From contig NZ_APNK01000020.1 in assembly GCF_000732535.1 (NCBI RefSeq), positions 1 through 64,000 on the forward strand: a stretch of DNA of 64,000 nucleotides, given 5' to 3'. Of the stretch, positions 1,855-9,429 are shown piece after piece (position 1 is the first letter of the stretch; every line of letters starts with the position of its first letter). The notes beneath the pieces were generated by a model. That model did no database searches and was not told the origin of the DNA. It saw only the letters and a list, made by a program, of their open reading frames with translations. The stretch comes from Salinisphaera hydrothermalis C41B8. Lineage in GTDB: Bacteria > Pseudomonadota > Gammaproteobacteria > Nevskiales > Salinisphaeraceae. A program made the translations under genes and the position numbers.

Positions 1855-2913
1855 CTACCAGCGTTCCGGCTCGACACTCTGCCCCGTCGCGGCCGACTGG
1901 TAGGCGGCTTCGACAAGCGCGAGGGTATTGAAGTTGTCCGGCCCCGCGGTGGGCGCAGGCTCTCTCGCGCGACGGCGCTCGATCCAGTCGCCTTGCAGGG
2001 CGACCACGCTTTCCTGAATCACGTTCCAGGGCGCTTCGCTCCAGGCCGGCCAGGTCGGCGTCACGTCTTCGACCGTTGCGCTGCCGCCGGGCCCGTGGAT
2101 CGTGAGCTGGAAGTCGGCGGCCAGCCGGATGGAACCGCGATCGCCGTCGACCTCGATCAGGCTTTGCGGAAAAGGATCGTCGGCGAGCGTCGTGGCATAG
2201 CTGCAATCGACCACCGAAACGCAGCCCGCCTCGTGACGCAGCATCAGGGTGGCGTGGTCTTCGCCGGCAATGTCGGGATTGACGCGCCCGGTCTCGCAGG
2301 ACAGCCGCACGACATCGCCGAACAATGCGCGCGCCATGTCCAGCGTATGGATGCCCAGGTCCTGGATGATGAAGCGCTCAAGCGTTGCGAGGTACGGCTG
2401 GTTGGCGAACACGTCGAATCCGCTGCGATAGCTGATGCGGCCGAAGAACGGCCGGCCAATGCGGCCCTCGCCGATCAACTCGGCGACGCGGCGCACGGCG
2501 TGCTGCCAACGAAAATTCTCGTGCACCGTCAGCGAGACGCCGTGCTTGCGACAGATGTTGATCAGCCGGCGGGCGGTCGCCAGCGATCCGGCGAACGGCT
2601 TCTGACAGATGATGTCGACGCCGTAGTGCGCGGCCGCCGTGACCAATGTCTCGTGGGCCGGGGTGGGCGCGGCGATATCCACGAAATCCACCGCCATCTG
2701 GGTAAGCAGTGTTTCGATATCGTCGAAACGATGCTCGATGCCGAAGGTGTCGCCGAAGGCCGCCAGCCGTCCGGCATCGCGATCGCACAGCGCGGCAATC
2801 GCCACCCCGGGCAGTTCCTGCCAGGCCCGCATCTGGTTGGCCGCGAAGAAACCGCAGCCGACGAGCGCGCCGCGCAGCACGGTGGAGGCGTTGGAATGAT
2901 GAGCGTCGTCCAT
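1855..2913 (-). CDS. apsD: Gfo/Idh/MocA dehydrogenase, probable D-apiose dehydrogenase
   Basis: This NAD(P)-dependent sugar dehydrogenase probably oxidises D-apiose to D-apionolactone in the cytoplasm. With the start at 2913 it has 352 residues: an N-terminal Rossmann fold with GCGFFA near 19-24, a CQKPF motif with the family lysine at about 105, and DLGIHTLD (D185, H189) at the active site of the C-terminal alpha/beta domain. The substrate is inferred from the close resemblance of the N-terminus to apiose dehydrogenases as I remember them, and from the neighbouring apionate genes. It is divergent from the lactonase genes, with an operator-like site between them. An in-frame ATG at 2958 would add 15 residues but lies almost at the predicted transcription start. 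Confidence 0.7.
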   Translation of the reverse strand: MDDAHHSNASTVLRGALVGCGFFAANQMRAWQELPGVAIAALCDRDAGRLAAFGDTFGIEHRFDDIETLLTQMAVDFVDIAAPTPAHETLVTAAAHYGVDIICQKPFAGSLATARRLINICRKHGVSLTVHENFRWQHAVRRVAELIGEGRIGRPFFGRISYRSGFDVFANQPYLATLERFIIQDLGIHTLDMARALFGDVVRLSCETGRVNPDIAGEDHATLMLRHEAGCVSVVDCSYATTLADDPFPQSLIEVDGDRGSIRLAADFQLTIHGPGGSATVEDVTPTWPAWSEAPWNVIQESVVALQGDWIERRRAREPAPTAGPDNFNTLALVEAAYQSAATGQSVEPERW

Positions 2914-2967
2914 GGCGATGTCCGGCTGCCGATGATCGGTGGGGCGAATATACGGCATCGCGAAGAG

Positions 2968-2990
2968 ATTATGTCATCATACCAATGATG
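2968..2990 (-). promoter_or_regulatory. Operator-like palindrome at the apsD promoter
   Basis: CATCAT and ATGATG flank ACCA at 2975-2990, a 16-bp inverted repeat. It abuts a -10-like CATAAT read on the minus strand (2968-2973). The 12 bases at 2974-2985 recur exactly at 5000-5011, upstream of the second half of the cluster. Sites of the TNGT-N3-ACNA type are bound by FadR/FCD-type GntR proteins; TCAT-CAT-ACCA is a near match. Control by the GntR regulator encoded at 7135-7860 is inferred. Confidence 0.5.
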
Positions 2991-3052: not shown

Positions 3053-3790
3053 ATGTCTGTTTCCGAAGCCGTGCGCATCCGGCGTGTCGGCACCCCAACC
3101 CCCGAAACTGTGCGTGAACGCCATGTCCTCGGCCCCGTGTGCTTCACGTGGCAGAGCGGCGCGATCCGCCATCTCTCGGTCGACGGCGTCGAAGTACTGC
3201 GCGGCATCGGCGCCGTGATCCGCGACGCCAACTGGGGCACGCATGCACTCCACACCGAAGCGGACGAGGCACATTCGAGCGACGGTGCGATCGCGTTCAC
3301 CTACTGCGCTCGGGTCGCGACCGACGGCGATGGCTCGGGCGAATCGCCGCTCGCGCTCGAACTACAGGCCCACATCGATGCTACGGAATTGGACGTGCGC
3401 CTCACCCTGACCGCGCGCGAACACTTCGTGACCTGTCGTAGTGGTCTGAGCGTGCTGCTGCCACTCGCCGGCGTGGTTGAGAGTGCCGTTGCGGTCGAAC
3501 ATTCCGACGGGCTCGTTGAGAAAGGGCATTTTCCGCGGCATATCAGCCCAAGCCAGCCGTTTTTCGACATTCGCGGGCTTTCGTTCGCGCCGACGCCGGA
3601 GCGGACCGTCGATCTGCACTTTGAAGGCGACGTATTCGAGATGGAGGACCAGCGCAACTGGTCGGATGCGTCATTCAAGATCTACAACCGCCCGCTGGCC
3701 CTGCCCTCGCCGTACCGCATCGAAGCCGGTGAAACGGTCACCCAAAGCGTGCGGCTGCGCTGGCGTGACACCACGGGAGCCGCGCAATGA
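3053..3790 (+). CDS. apnL: D-apionate lactonase, N-terminal domain as a separate protein
   Basis: The 245-residue, mostly beta protein carries features I associate with the N-terminal domain of D-apionate lactonase: a DGVEVLRGI...RDANWGT segment near 40-65, PSQPFFDIRGL near 165-175, and FEMEDQRNWSDASFK followed by RPLALPSPY near 197-225. ApnL, which hydrolyses D-apionolactone to D-apionate, is to my knowledge a single chain of about 600-640 residues. Here it stops after the first domain, and the middle and C-terminal domains follow in the next gene, overlapping by ATGA. The ATG at 3053 is preferred over upstream in-frame starts, which would run into the divergent promoter. No catalytic role is assigned to this half alone. 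Confidence 0.65.
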   Translation: MSVSEAVRIRRVGTPTPETVRERHVLGPVCFTWQSGAIRHLSVDGVEVLRGIGAVIRDANWGTHALHTEADEAHSSDGAIAFTYCARVATDGDGSGESPLALELQAHIDATELDVRLTLTAREHFVTCRSGLSVLLPLAGVVESAVAVEHSDGLVEKGHFPRHISPSQPFFDIRGLSFAPTPERTVDLHFEGDVFEMEDQRNWSDASFKIYNRPLALPSPYRIEAGETVTQSVRLRWRDTTGAAQ

Positions 3791-4971
3791 AGCCCATCGC
3801 CATCACGCCGCGGCCGCTCGAAACCCGGGTGCCGGATCTCGGCGTCGGGCTATGGGCCGCACACGCCCCCGCCAACGACATGCTCACGGCCCAGCTTGAT
3901 GCGCTCCGGCCCGGTCATGTCGATCTGCTCGTTGATCTGAGAGTCGACGACGAAATCGATACGCTCGAAAGCGTGCTCTCTCTCTTTCGCGGGCGTGAAT
4001 GTCAGTTATGGCTCTATCTGATCTGCGACGACGATGCGCCGCAGGCCGGGCTCGCCCGACTCGCCGAGATACTGGGGACCGAGGCCGAAGGCATCTCGGG
4101 CATGCTGCTCACACCGGCGGCCTATCTCAACAGCTATCAGCCGGACGGCGACTGGCCACGCACGACCACGCCGGCGGCACTCGTCTCGCAAGCCCGACGA
4201 TACTGGCCGAATCTTGCGATCGGCGGCGGCTTCCCCACGTATTTCACCGAGCTCAATCGTTGCCGGCCGGACCCGTCGACGATTGATTTTCTCACCCATG
4301 CCACGTCGCCGATCGTGCACGCGGCCGACGATGTCTCGGTGATGGAAACCCTGGAAAGCCTGCCGTTCATCTTTGAATCGGCGCGCGCAATCGCCCCGGG
4401 GCGACGCTACCGGATCACAACCAGCGCAATCGGCGCGTGGACCAACCCCTATGGAAAGACGATCACCCCGAACGCGACCCTGGAACGCGTGACGCTCAGC
4501 GACAACGACCCGCGCCAACGCGCCCTATTCGCGGCCGCTTGGTCGGTGGGTTATCTGGCCCAGGCGATCGGGCGTGTCGATTCGCTCACACTGTCTTCAA
4601 TCGGCCATCCGTTCCCGATCGCAGAACCCGCGGCGCGCTACCCGATCTTCGATGTGCTGCGGCGCCTGAACATCGGCACCGGCCGACCTGCCATGGGTGT
4701 GGCCGAACCCTTGAACTGTCTGGCGGCCCTCGGCTGGCAAACCGAAGACGAACGCGCCGAATTCTGGCTGGCTAATCTCACCGACGAAACGTGCGTGGTC
4801 ACCGTGGCCGGCACTCGCTACGCTGCCGTGCTGGACGAACAGACCAACCCGAGCGCGTCGGCGCTGCGCGACTGGCCGCTAGAGAGGCTCGCGCTCTGCA
4901 ACGAGTCGCCGCTGACGCTCGCCCCGTATGCCATCGCTCGCCTCGAGATCACGCTCGCACATTCGACTTAA
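3787..4971 (+). CDS. apnL: D-apionate lactonase, middle and C-terminal domains as a separate protein
   Basis: This 394-residue protein has a TIM-barrel-like core followed by a small beta domain. Recognisable segments are GGGFPTYFTELNRCRP near 138-153, a PIVHAADDVSVMETL stretch near 171-187 and SAIGAWTNPYGK near 215-226. I associate these with the catalytic part of D-apionate lactonase. The ATG overlaps the stop of the preceding gene (ATGA) and has its own GGGAG ribosome site at about 3775-3779. It therefore looks like a translationally coupled second subunit rather than a sequencing frameshift. The combined length of the two proteins (639) equals that of a normal fused ApnL. Confidence 0.65.
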   Translation: MKPIAITPRPLETRVPDLGVGLWAAHAPANDMLTAQLDALRPGHVDLLVDLRVDDEIDTLESVLSLFRGRECQLWLYLICDDDAPQAGLARLAEILGTEAEGISGMLLTPAAYLNSYQPDGDWPRTTTPAALVSQARRYWPNLAIGGGFPTYFTELNRCRPDPSTIDFLTHATSPIVHAADDVSVMETLESLPFIFESARAIAPGRRYRITTSAIGAWTNPYGKTITPNATLERVTLSDNDPRQRALFAAAWSVGYLAQAIGRVDSLTLSSIGHPFPIAEPAARYPIFDVLRRLNIGTGRPAMGVAEPLNCLAALGWQTEDERAEFWLANLTDETCVVTVAGTRYAAVLDEQTNPSASALRDWPLERLALCNESPLTLAPYAIARLEITLAHST

Positions 4972-5386
4972 GCCGCATTGTCCGAGCTTTATGGTGTACT
5001 CATCATACCAACGTAATTCACGGTTCATTCGAGCCAGGCAGCGCGGGTCGATAAGCCATGGCCGATGCAACCGACGCCCAGACACGGAAACAGCGCCCTG
5101 CTCGCCAGCGGATCGGGCGATCGGTGCCGTTCGACATCGCCGACCCGCTTGATCGCTTTCCGGCGTCCTTCGCCGCCCTGCGGAAATGCCGACCGGTGCC
5201 GATCGAGGATCGCCCGGGTCCCGCGACCCAGGCCGGGCTGAAACCGGCTTGGCGACTTCGCCAGGTTCGGGGCGGACCACATAACCGATGGGTTGCACGG
5301 CGTCAGCGACGGCTGCATGCGCCCGCGCGACGCCCGAACAAAGCATGCCGCGAGACCTGCCTCCTGATCATCTGCAACGAGCTGCC
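4972..5386. other. Intergenic region holding a second operator
   Basis: The 415 bases between the lactonase genes and oiaC contain no ORF with recognisable content; short ORFs on both strands look like chance translations. The only structure I can support is the operator-like repeat at 4992-5011, near a possible -35 box TTGTCC at 4978-4983. Confidence 0.4.
4992..5011 (+). promoter_or_regulatory. Operator-like site upstream of oiaC-apnO
   Basis: TCATCATACCAA at 5000-5011 is identical to 2974-2985. Here TGGTGT (4992-4997) and ATACCA (5005-5010) form an imperfect inverted repeat with a seven-base centre. It overlaps the probable -10 region served by TTGTCC at 4978-4983, as expected of a repressor site. 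Confidence 0.5.
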
Positions 5387-6187
5387 ATGAATATCGGATT
5401 GAGCACTTATGCCTTCACCTGGCGCGGATCGGAGCGCATGGCATCACCCATGACGCTGATCGACATGATGGACGAAACCGTCGACCTTGGCGGCGGCGTG
5501 TTCCAGATCTGCGACTATCCCGCCATCGAGGCCTACTCCGACGCCGAGCTCACCGAACTGGCCGTCCAGGCGGAACGGCGCAACCTCACGCTGGAACTCG
5601 GCACGCGTGGCATCGGCCCCACCCAACTCGCGCGTTATCTGGATATTGCAGCACGCTTGGACGTCCGGGTGCTGCGCTCCATGTTCAACGATGCCGAAAC
5701 CCGGCCGTCGCCGGATCAGGCTGAAGCCTGGCTGCGTGCCGTTATTCCCGGACTGGAGCGCCAGAACGTGACGCTGGCGCTGGAAACCTACGAACAGGTG
5801 CCGGTGGATACGCTGGTGGCAACCGTCGCTGGGCTCGACAGCCCATACGTCGGCATCTGTCTCGACCCGGGCAACTGCGTGGCGGCTCTGGAAATGCCGG
5901 CGTCGGTCATCGAACGCACCGCACCCTACGTGAAGAACCTGCATATCAAGGACTTCCAATTCACCCGCGCCGACGGTTGGGTGGGCTTTCGCCTGCTTGG
6001 CTGCCCGCTTGGCGAGGGGCTGCTCGATCTGGACGGCATGCTCACCCGCGTGGCGCCGCGTGAACGCGACATCAATTGCATCGTCGAGCACTGGCTTGAC
6101 TGGCAGAACGACGCCGAGACCACGGCCACCGTCGAGGCGGCCTGGACCCGGCACAGCATGGATATTCTCAGGAGTCTTCAATCATGA
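5387..6187 (+). CDS. oiaC: Xylose isomerase-like TIM barrel protein, probable 3-oxo-isoapionate decarboxylase
   Basis: This 266-residue AP-endonuclease-2/sugar isomerase-type TIM barrel probably decarboxylates 3-oxo-isoapionate to L-erythrulose and CO2. The family metal ligands are visible in order: glutamate in LALETYEQ, aspartate in CLDPGNC, histidine in LHIKDFQF, and a late glutamate in CIVEHWLDW. The assignment to the apionate pathway rests on the neighbouring apnL and apnO genes; sequence alone shows only the family. It overlaps apnO by ATGA, so the two are co-translated. The start at 5387 opens directly with NIGLSTYAF, the first barrel strand. Confidence 0.65.
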   Translation: MNIGLSTYAFTWRGSERMASPMTLIDMMDETVDLGGGVFQICDYPAIEAYSDAELTELAVQAERRNLTLELGTRGIGPTQLARYLDIAARLDVRVLRSMFNDAETRPSPDQAEAWLRAVIPGLERQNVTLALETYEQVPVDTLVATVAGLDSPYVGICLDPGNCVAALEMPASVIERTAPYVKNLHIKDFQFTRADGWVGFRLLGCPLGEGLLDLDGMLTRVAPRERDINCIVEHWLDWQNDAETTATVEAAWTRHSMDILRSLQS

Positions 6188-7050
6188 GCGATTATCGAAC
6201 CCTCGCGCTGGTCGGCGCCGGCGGCAAAATGGGTATGCGCATCGGCGCAAACCTGGCGCGCTCCGACTACACGGTGCACTACTGCGAGAACGCGCCAGCC
6301 GGGCGCGAACGTCTGGCCGCCGAGGGTCGCGAAGCCAGCGAGATCCACGACGTGATCGCCGCATGCGATCTGGTGATCCTGGCCGTGCCCGATATCGCCC
6401 TCGCGGACGTCAGCCGCGATCTGGTGCCGCGCATGCGCAGCGGTGCAACGTTGCTCACGCTCGATCCGGCCGCGGCCTATGCCAACGTTCTGCATCAGCG
6501 CGACGACATTCAGTACGCCGTGGCCCATCCCTGCCATCCGTCGGTATTTCTGGAGCGCCGCACCGATGCCGAATACGCCGACGCCTTCGGCGGCGCGGCG
6601 GCCACGCAGTCGGTGGCCGCCGCCTTCGACGATGGCAGCGAAGCCGACAAGGACGCGCTGGAGCCCGTGGTTCGCGTCATGTACGGCCCGGTCGACACCG
6701 TACACTGGGTCACCGTCACCCAGCTGGCTTATCTGGAACCAACGCTGGTCGAAACCGTGACCTGCATGCTCGGCACGTTCATGAAGGAAGCACTGGACGA
6801 GACGGTGGAACGCACCGGCATGCCCCGCCCGGCGGCCGAGGCCATGCTCTACGGCCATATCCAGATCGCCCTGGCCGTGGCTTTCAAGAGCACCAACCCG
6901 TTCTCGGATGCCTGCATGATCGCCATGGACTATGGCCGCGACGCGATCATCAAGGACGACTGGAAGAAGATCTTCGATCAGGGCGAGCTAGACAAGGTCA
7001 TTGCCCGCATGCTCAAGATCGGCCGCGTGAACCGGCCCCAAGCGGAATAG
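6184..7050 (+). CDS. apnO: Probable D-apionate oxidoisomerase
   Basis: This 288-residue NAD-dependent enzyme related to 6-phosphogluconate and beta-hydroxyacid dehydrogenases has a Rossmann fold with GAGGKMG at 11-17 and an all-helical C-terminal domain. Other clear segments are AHPCHPSVF near 117-125 and KSTNPFSDACMIAMDYG in the C-terminal third. Such proteins oxidise and isomerise D-apionate to 3-oxo-isoapionate, the substrate for the decarboxylase encoded just before it with an ATGA overlap. The substrate is inferred from this context. A bidirectional terminator follows, separating it from the convergent regulator gene. Confidence 0.7.
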   Translation: MSDYRTLALVGAGGKMGMRIGANLARSDYTVHYCENAPAGRERLAAEGREASEIHDVIAACDLVILAVPDIALADVSRDLVPRMRSGATLLTLDPAAAYANVLHQRDDIQYAVAHPCHPSVFLERRTDAEYADAFGGAAATQSVAAAFDDGSEADKDALEPVVRVMYGPVDTVHWVTVTQLAYLEPTLVETVTCMLGTFMKEALDETVERTGMPRPAAEAMLYGHIQIALAVAFKSTNPFSDACMIAMDYGRDAIIKDDWKKIFDQGELDKVIARMLKIGRVNRPQAE

Positions 7051-7134: not shown

Positions 7135-7860
7135 TCAGGCGTCGCCTTCGTCCATGCGGGCCCGGTAGAGGTCGCTGGCTCGCGTGAGGTGATCGTGCAT
7201 GGCGGCGGCCGCGCCCTCGGCATCGCCCTCGGCCAGGCGCTCGGCGATCCGGCGATGTTCGCTCACCGATACATCCTCGGCGCCCTTCGCACTCACGATG
7301 CCGGTGTAGTAATCCTTGAGCCAGTGCAGCATGGCTCGCGTCGTTGCCGCGAATATCGGATTGCCGGACATATCGGCGATCGCGTTGTGAAACGCCATAT
7401 CCGCGTCGATGAATTCGGACGTGCCGGCATGCTCGACCATCTCGTCGATGATGGCCTCAAGCGAGGCGATATCCTCGGCCGTGGCTTTCTCGGCCGCGAT
7501 GCGCACCAGACCCGTTTCCAGAAACAGGCGGGCTTCCTTCAGATGGTCGACATTGTCGGCCGAATCCGACAGCAGAAAACGCGCGGTGCGATCGAACTGG
7601 TTGATCATCGAGTGCACCGTGACCTCGGTCACGCGGGCGCGTTCGCCGTGCGTGATCGCGATCATGCCCATCGCCGCGAGCTGTTGCATCGCTTCGCGCA
7701 CCGCCGGCCGGCCGACGTCGTACTCGCGCATCAGCTCGCGCTCGGGCGGCAACTGGTCGCCGGCCTTGAAATGGCCCGACCGGATGCGCGTCAGCAGTCG
7801 TTCCAGCACTTCGTCGGACAGTTTTCGACGACGAATCGGTGTGTTGCCGGGGTCGTTCAT
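7135..7860 (-). CDS. GntR-family regulator with FCD domain
   Basis: This 241-residue repressor-type regulator has an N-terminal winged helix-turn-helix (about 12-78, with DQLPPERELMREYDVGRPAVREA) and an all-alpha FCD ligand domain (about 100-230). The FCD domain shows an ADMAFHNAIADMSGNP segment and a later SEHRRI, whose aspartate and histidines normally bind a metal and a carboxylate effector. Its position, convergent with apnO at the end of the catabolic cluster, and the duplicated 12-bp site upstream of apsD and oiaC make it the likely regulator of the apiose genes. A sugar acid or lactone is the expected inducer; this is inference. Confidence 0.85.
   Translation of the reverse strand: MNDPGNTPIRRRKLSDEVLERLLTRIRSGHFKAGDQLPPERELMREYDVGRPAVREAMQQLAAMGMIAITHGERARVTEVTVHSMINQFDRTARFLLSDSADNVDHLKEARLFLETGLVRIAAEKATAEDIASLEAIIDEMVEHAGTSEFIDADMAFHNAIADMSGNPIFAATTRAMLHWLKDYYTGIVSAKGAEDVSVSEHRRIAERLAEGDAEGAAAAMHDHLTRASDLYRARMDEGDA

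Positions 7861-8787: not shown

Positions 8788-8791
<4 letters not shown>
8285..8791 (+). CDS. fimT: Type IV minor pilin FimT/GspH family
   Basis: This 168-residue pseudopilin has a short prepilin leader ending in RG, followed by FTLLELMVTLAVAVVLL: cleavage between G8 and F9, with the conserved glutamate at +5 (E13). The hydrophobic helix is followed by a globular part with two cysteines near residues 73 and 78. GspH/FimT/FimU proteins prime pilus assembly, and FimT of some bacteria binds DNA during uptake. It is the first gene of the minor pilin operon and overlaps pilV by ATGA. Only one FimT/FimU-type gene is present, where P. aeruginosa has two. Confidence 0.85.

Positions 8792-9425
<634 letters not shown>

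Positions 9426-9429
<4 letters not shown>

Follow-up and report, generated by a model that had tools for sequence, protein, structure and literature searches.

The window analysed here comprises 64,000 nucleotides of Salinisphaera hydrothermalis C41B8 (contig NZ_APNK01000020.1, positions 1 to 64,000), and its forward strand carries two consecutive open reading frames that together make up a homologue of D-apionate lactonase (ApnL). The first (3053..3790; ATG at 3053, TGA at 3788–3790) encodes the N-terminal half, of 245 residues, and the second (3787..4971; ATG at 3787, TAA at 4969–4971) encodes the middle plus C-terminal half, of 394 residues. The half genes lie in different frames and have the tetranucleotide ATGA in common (3787..3790, forward strand), with the start of the second gene placed over the stop of the first. 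A Shine-Dalgarno-like site of the second gene, GGGAG (3775..3779, forward strand), is separated from its ATG by 7 nt and has a duplex energy of −6.6, a value attained by 1.0% of 387 control positions within the two half genes. A first-pass annotation of this DNA had described the same coordinates, lengths (245 + 394 residues), overlap in different frames, and ribosome-binding site, and all of these are borne out by the sequence.

Searches with the NCBIfam model of D-apionate lactonase ApnL (NF049900) placed the N-terminal half at model positions 4–233 of 595 (E = 2.2e-60, 204.9 bits) and the second half at positions 248–593 (E = 8.1e-59, 199.7 bits), two stretches that are complementary and nearly adjacent. 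Homology along nearly the whole model is therefore supplied by the two frames together, and in a search of the whole genome nothing else matched. The ApnL likeness that the first-pass annotation had recognized is thus seen in both halves. However, its naming of the pair as D-apionate lactonase holds only in part: the pair is homologous to ApnL and sits in a gene cluster of the apiose type, but its scores of 205 and 200 bits compare with an equivalog cut-off of 750 bits, set for the whole protein, and two chains are found instead of the single chain of about 600–700 residues typical of ApnL. Because the halves score below this cut-off, the pair is filed here as an ApnL homologue rather than as ApnL itself (EC 3.1.1.115, as D-apionolactonase), and, with scores so far below 750 bits, we infer the exact substrate; the likely reaction of the split enzyme is the opening of a lactone of a plant cell-wall sugar. 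Other homologues also lie below the cut-off, namely the fused gene of G1006 (locus L007; 395.2 bits) and those at L049 (415), L055 (496), L029 (626), and L031 (670). In Pfam, neither half had a family match at E ≤ 0.1, and a canonical single-chain ApnL had none at E ≤ 0.01; a PDB sequence search with the second half gave no match at E ≤ 1. In the PDB search with the first half, a DARPin match (E = 0.18) was at chance level and was discarded.

The genes on either side are candidates for steps of D-apiose breakdown. Divergent from the half genes lies a Gfo/Idh/MocA oxidoreductase gene (1855..2958, reverse strand; PF01408, E = 4.1e-23), likely encoding a D-apiose dehydrogenase, and downstream on the forward strand are a xylose-isomerase-like TIM-barrel gene (5387..6187; PF01261, E = 2e-16) and a PGDH_C dehydrogenase gene (6184..7050; PF16896, E = 4.1e-60), the latter proposed to encode a D-apionate oxidoisomerase. 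Relatives of the Gfo/Idh and PGDH_C genes occur beside ApnL homologues elsewhere, including ApnL genes above the cut-off at L101, L102, and L103. A NanR-like, GntR-family (FCD) regulator follows (7135..7860, reverse strand; Pfam FCD and GntR; NF003011, 290 bits against a cut-off of 260). A 4-nt overlap is likewise found where the TIM-barrel gene meets the PGDH_C gene (6184–6187); short overlaps are therefore a habit of the split-lactonase operon. The 415 bases (4972–5386) that separate the second half gene from the TIM-barrel gene hold no confident gene; the corresponding interval is about 40 bases long in Salinisphaera Q1T1-3 and is occupied by an MFS transporter gene in Kushneria phyllosphaerae. 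Farther along, at 8788–9429, there is a pilin-like reading frame with a prepilin-type start and a long Gly-Asn repeat, lying, as judged by eye, beside other type IV pilus-like frames.

In the stretches fetched from the 14 other split genomes, relatives of the Gfo/Idh gene were found in 14, of the GntR gene in 14, of the PGDH gene in 12, and of the TIM-barrel gene in 11; the TIM-barrel and PGDH relatives were both absent from the 16 kb fetched for split genomes L087 and L088, and the TIM-barrel relative was absent from the stretch fetched for Pseudomonas japonica. Among 34 single-chain regions, the Gfo/Idh relative was present in 16, the PGDH relative in 16, and the TIM-barrel relative in one (L007). 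We propose the TIM-barrel protein as a putative 3-oxo-isoapionate decarboxylase, against which it counts that a relative accompanies a single-chain gene at L007 only; such a decarboxylase can come next in D-apiose breakdown and, set against canonical ApnL clusters, would stand in for what those clusters use. One of the known D-apiose routes includes a RuBisCO-like step, and the other would use the TIM-barrel decarboxylase. A search of the genome with PF00016 found no RuBisCO-like gene, a result that fits the decarboxylase route.

As regards the other members, we presume that D-apionolactonase corresponds to ApnL, D-apiose dehydrogenase to the Gfo/Idh protein, and D-apionate oxidoisomerase to the PGDH_C protein. 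Candidates for all three components of a D-apiose cluster—dehydrogenase, lactonase, and oxidoisomerase genes—are found in the window, at 1855–2958, 3053–4971, and 6184–7050, respectively. The same three activities are described as encoded in one cluster of a D-apiose-growing strain (PMC11747546, Front Microbiol), in an excerpt that names D-apionolactonase and makes no mention of a split of the enzyme. A candidate operator, TCATCATACCAA, lies in the divergent promoter region (2974..2985, forward strand), with a second copy downstream of the second half gene and ahead of the TIM-barrel gene (5000..5011, forward strand); allowing at most one mismatch, this 12-base form occurs three times in the window, compared with 0.14 expected. 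The exact form TCATCATACCA was found in all 15 split regions and in 8 of the 34 single-chain ones, the latter including L101 and L102, both of which hold an ApnL above the cut-off, and with one mismatch it was found in 15 of the 34. Split clusters and the L101 and L102 clusters thus have both gene neighbours and the operator-like motif in common, and the motif would tie the split operon to the same regulon as the single-chain ApnL clusters. Taken together, the neighbouring genes and the common motif fit D-apiose breakdown.

The same split, sought in relatives, was found in 15 distinct genomes after removal of repeats, the window's genome included, these belonging to Salinisphaera, Kushneria, Salinicola, Pseudomonas japonica, and others; the nearest is G013, in the same genus as the window. 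When genome contigs were scanned with the second half, 34 loci were obtained, with the halves in one frame at 30 and in separate frames at four (Salinisphaera sp. Q1T1-3, Kushneria phyllosphaerae, Pseudomonas japonica, and an uncultured Kushneria). The ApnL model matched 15 of 398 genomes in a phylum sample, where two were split (the window's and G324), one had the N part only, and 12 had one chain. It matched two of 369 in a class sample (the window's genome and a single-chain genome) and two of 85 in an order sample (both split). In the family of G324, which appears to be the Halomonadaceae, 13 of 275 genomes matched, 12 of them split and one fused; the family is placed by K. phyllosphaerae, whose sequence there equals that of G950, and the fused gene, of G1006, is identical to that of Salinicola rhizosphaerae.

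At all 15 split junctions, the first gene ends in TGA and is overlapped by the ATG of the second gene, this being the start chosen by us where starts farther upstream also exist (for example, at L065, L067, and L008). This conserved placement of the second start at the first stop is that of a translationally coupled pair. The overlap measures 4 nt in nine genomes, 8 nt in one, 11 nt in two, and 14 nt in three; the second gene lies in the −1 frame relative to the first in nine and in the +1 frame in six, with both relations seen inside Salinisphaera (the window versus Q1T1-3), the Kushneria-type group, and the Salinicola-type group. Around the stop, the linker varies, by insertions and deletions as well, and the two-gene state persists; a local base error is therefore excluded as a general cause, and programmed frameshifting is disfavoured. 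More specifically, a sequencing or assembly error, by which one chain would carry a false frameshift at the junction, could imitate a 4-nt overlap in another frame by a change of one base, and the first-pass annotation had named such an error as the observation that would undo its reading. A single-base error, however, cannot account for a break that recurs in 15 distinct genomes, with differing linkers, two frame relations, and an ATG over the stop in each, and purifying selection on both halves also speaks against it; the probability of this explanation is practically nil.

Programmed frameshifting at the overlap, yielding a fused chain alongside the short one, has in its favour that frameshift sites usually sit in overlapping frames. 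The required shift would nevertheless be −1 in nine genomes and +1 in six, differing between close relatives; by eye, no common slippery sequence is apparent at the 15 junctions; and each second gene has its own ATG, preceded in 14 of 15 cases by a Shine-Dalgarno-like site that ranks within the top 10%, which together make frameshifting very unlikely. This last figure refers to the anti-Shine-Dalgarno energy of the second-gene start among positions of the two genes (mean fraction, 0.048), the exception being L064 at 0.186. Because some single-chain linkers also score well (L050, −10.9; L012 and L028, −5.8), this test is weak alone and is used in a supporting role.

Both halves bear the marks of functional proteins. 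In simple estimates for 10 pairs of relatives, dN/dS was 0.27–0.40 for the first half in nine of 10 pairs and 0.20–0.32 for the second half in all 10, giving 0.20–0.40 in 19 of 20 comparisons; the exception (1.57; first half, L054/L068) is calculated on a dS of 0.01. These values point to purifying selection on both halves. Across the aligned rows, 41 columns in the first half and 34 in the second are conserved at ≥93%, those of the first half including the stretch 195–211 of the window protein; the window's N-terminal half deviates from the consensus at G143. A decaying pseudogene, in which the break inactivated the enzyme, would be in line with what is seen in an uncultured Kushneria (L009, L080), whose second half carries an additional break. 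Decay is nonetheless extremely improbable for the split form at large, given the dN/dS values, the conserved positions of ApnL retained by both halves in the split rows, and the operon retained in split genomes. In the Kushneria case, the second half is itself divided into two overlapping frames (L009, 6938–8147; 277 and 177 residues), by error or decay.

To place the split in the history of the gene, a tree of 58 rows was used, one per distinct gene (15 split and 43 single-chain), omitting genomes already represented, the lone N-type loci (L052 and L083–L086), and the second contig of G1009 (L061). The split label needs two changes on this tree, and the starred branches force two. The set of 16 rows formed by all split genes plus the fused gene of Salinicola rhizosphaerae is starred (100/99), and its neighbour is a single-chain gammaproteobacterial gene (G603). 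In a tree of 28 of the 58 rows, two changes were again obtained, and a clade of the 15 split rows without the fused Salinicola gene was rejected (p-AU = 3.8e-58); the N half alone and the second half alone also gave two changes each. The simplest reading of these trees is a single fission followed by an apparent re-fusion in S. rhizosphaerae. Because the count of changes is independent of the root, the direction of change is read from the single chains that lie outside and all round the split group. The contrary arrangement, in which Salinicola kept the ancestral chain, was set aside, since it would require several separate fissions at one place.

The fused gene is nested in the split clade and has the same neighbours, but consists of one open frame of 663 residues, counted from the ATG-side start used, with no overlap. 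Its linker has no in-frame ATG before the barrel and does have an in-frame TTG, and the gene is known from a single draft assembly, so that an assembly error keeps a small probability and the re-fusion is termed apparent. As judged from these sequences, the split reflects a genuine, ancient fission of the gene rather than faulty sequencing: the junctions of the 15 genomes, the tree, and the dN/dS values all support the real fission with coupled, overlapping genes that the first-pass annotation had proposed. The spread of the split over several genera, and its apparent reversal on one occasion, in S. rhizosphaerae, had not been foreseen there. Fissions that leave translationally coupled genes have been described before, and in them, as here, the downstream start lies close to the upstream stop across genomes (PMC3711429). 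The excerpted text of that survey does not mention the ApnL family; in the present case, the fission, its single origin, and its apparent reversal can be placed on a tree.

A structural model of the fused Salinicola chain (32 rows) reached a pLDDT of 89.5 and a pTM of 0.92, and its sole stretch of at least three residues below a pLDDT of 50, residues 249–259, is the linker where the split relatives end and start. Residues 260–657 of this chain align alone to whole glycosidases, the best match being a β-glucuronidase (8b0d; Z = 24.7, rmsd 3.5, 357 residues). The second half hence resembles a complete glycosidase-type barrel plus sandwich, as in 8b0d (GH79) and other enzymes of the clan GH-A type, such as GH30 xylanases and GH51 arabinofuranosidases. 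It differs from them in its low identity (15%), in the additional N-terminal domain, and in that a lactonase rather than a glycosidase is expected. The fission so leaves a sandwich domain at the N terminus on one chain and an entire barrel plus sandwich on the other; the NF049900 stretches, the fused model, and the structural alignment agree with the boundary given in the first-pass annotation, which puts the N-terminal domain on one side and the middle and C-terminal domains on the other. When the window's second half was modelled by itself (8 rows, pLDDT 64.6), the result was poor, is not fairly comparable with the 32-row fused model, and was not used.

These same alignments allow the halves to be read as separate enzymes, or one of them as regulatory, with an N half acting alone—its fold may be aldose-epimerase-like—and a second half that is a hydrolase by itself. 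That the second half alone covers whole glycosidases is consistent with such independence, as is the presence of aldose 1-epimerases in the Foldseek list (3nre, E = 1.8e-7), matches that may concern the N domain, and of lone N-type proteins in another genus. Against it, the structural alignment barely covered the N part, whose fold is left unclaimed; the half genes sit next to each other, with an overlap, in all 15 split genomes and form one chain elsewhere; and the lone N-type proteins are 22–25% identical to the window's and are devoid of its most conserved stretch. Independent halves are, on balance, unlikely. The lone N-domain homologues themselves (L052, L083, L084, L085, and L086; 111–118 bits to NF049900) occur in five of 53 genomes belonging to a different gammaproteobacterial genus, and were set aside because of a different neighbourhood where checked, with GGDEF genes in L099 and L100. 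The conserved pairing of the half genes and the confident packing in the fused relative's model suggest a two-subunit enzyme, and a complex of the two chains is proposed because a pTM this high would be expected if the two parts pack in a defined way.

Overall, the following explanation is considered quite probable. An ancestral single-chain ApnL-type lactonase would have been cut once, in the ancestor of a gammaproteobacterial gene lineage, within the disordered linker between the N-terminal β-sandwich domain and the barrel-plus-sandwich part. Both half genes would be carried on one transcript, on which the ribosome would terminate at the TGA of the first gene and start the second at the overlapping ATG with the help of the Shine-Dalgarno-like site, such re-initiation keeping the amounts of the two chains linked. 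The chains would most likely bind each other at the interface by which the two parts meet in a one-chain enzyme, and the pair would hydrolyse D-apionolactone, or a closely related branched-sugar lactone, to the acid as a step of D-apiose catabolism. Within this scheme, the two genes, their conserved split, the purifying selection on both, and the tree come from the data, and we infer the re-initiation, the complex, and the reaction.

A further proposal, which seems rather doubtful, is that the fission freed the N-terminal sandwich to serve as a second subunit open to exchange or as an independent helper enzyme, such as one turning over the sugar or lactone before hydrolysis, and that the lineage moved between the two-chain and one-chain states at least once each way. 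If this is true, the lineage would be a natural experiment on why a multidomain enzyme stays one chain. For annotation pipelines, split pairs of this kind are easily labelled as frameshifted or hypothetical, because they score below the equivalog cut-off. A fission that can be dated on a tree, has been retained in several genera, and appears to have been reversed in one nested species may be useful for testing domain linkage.
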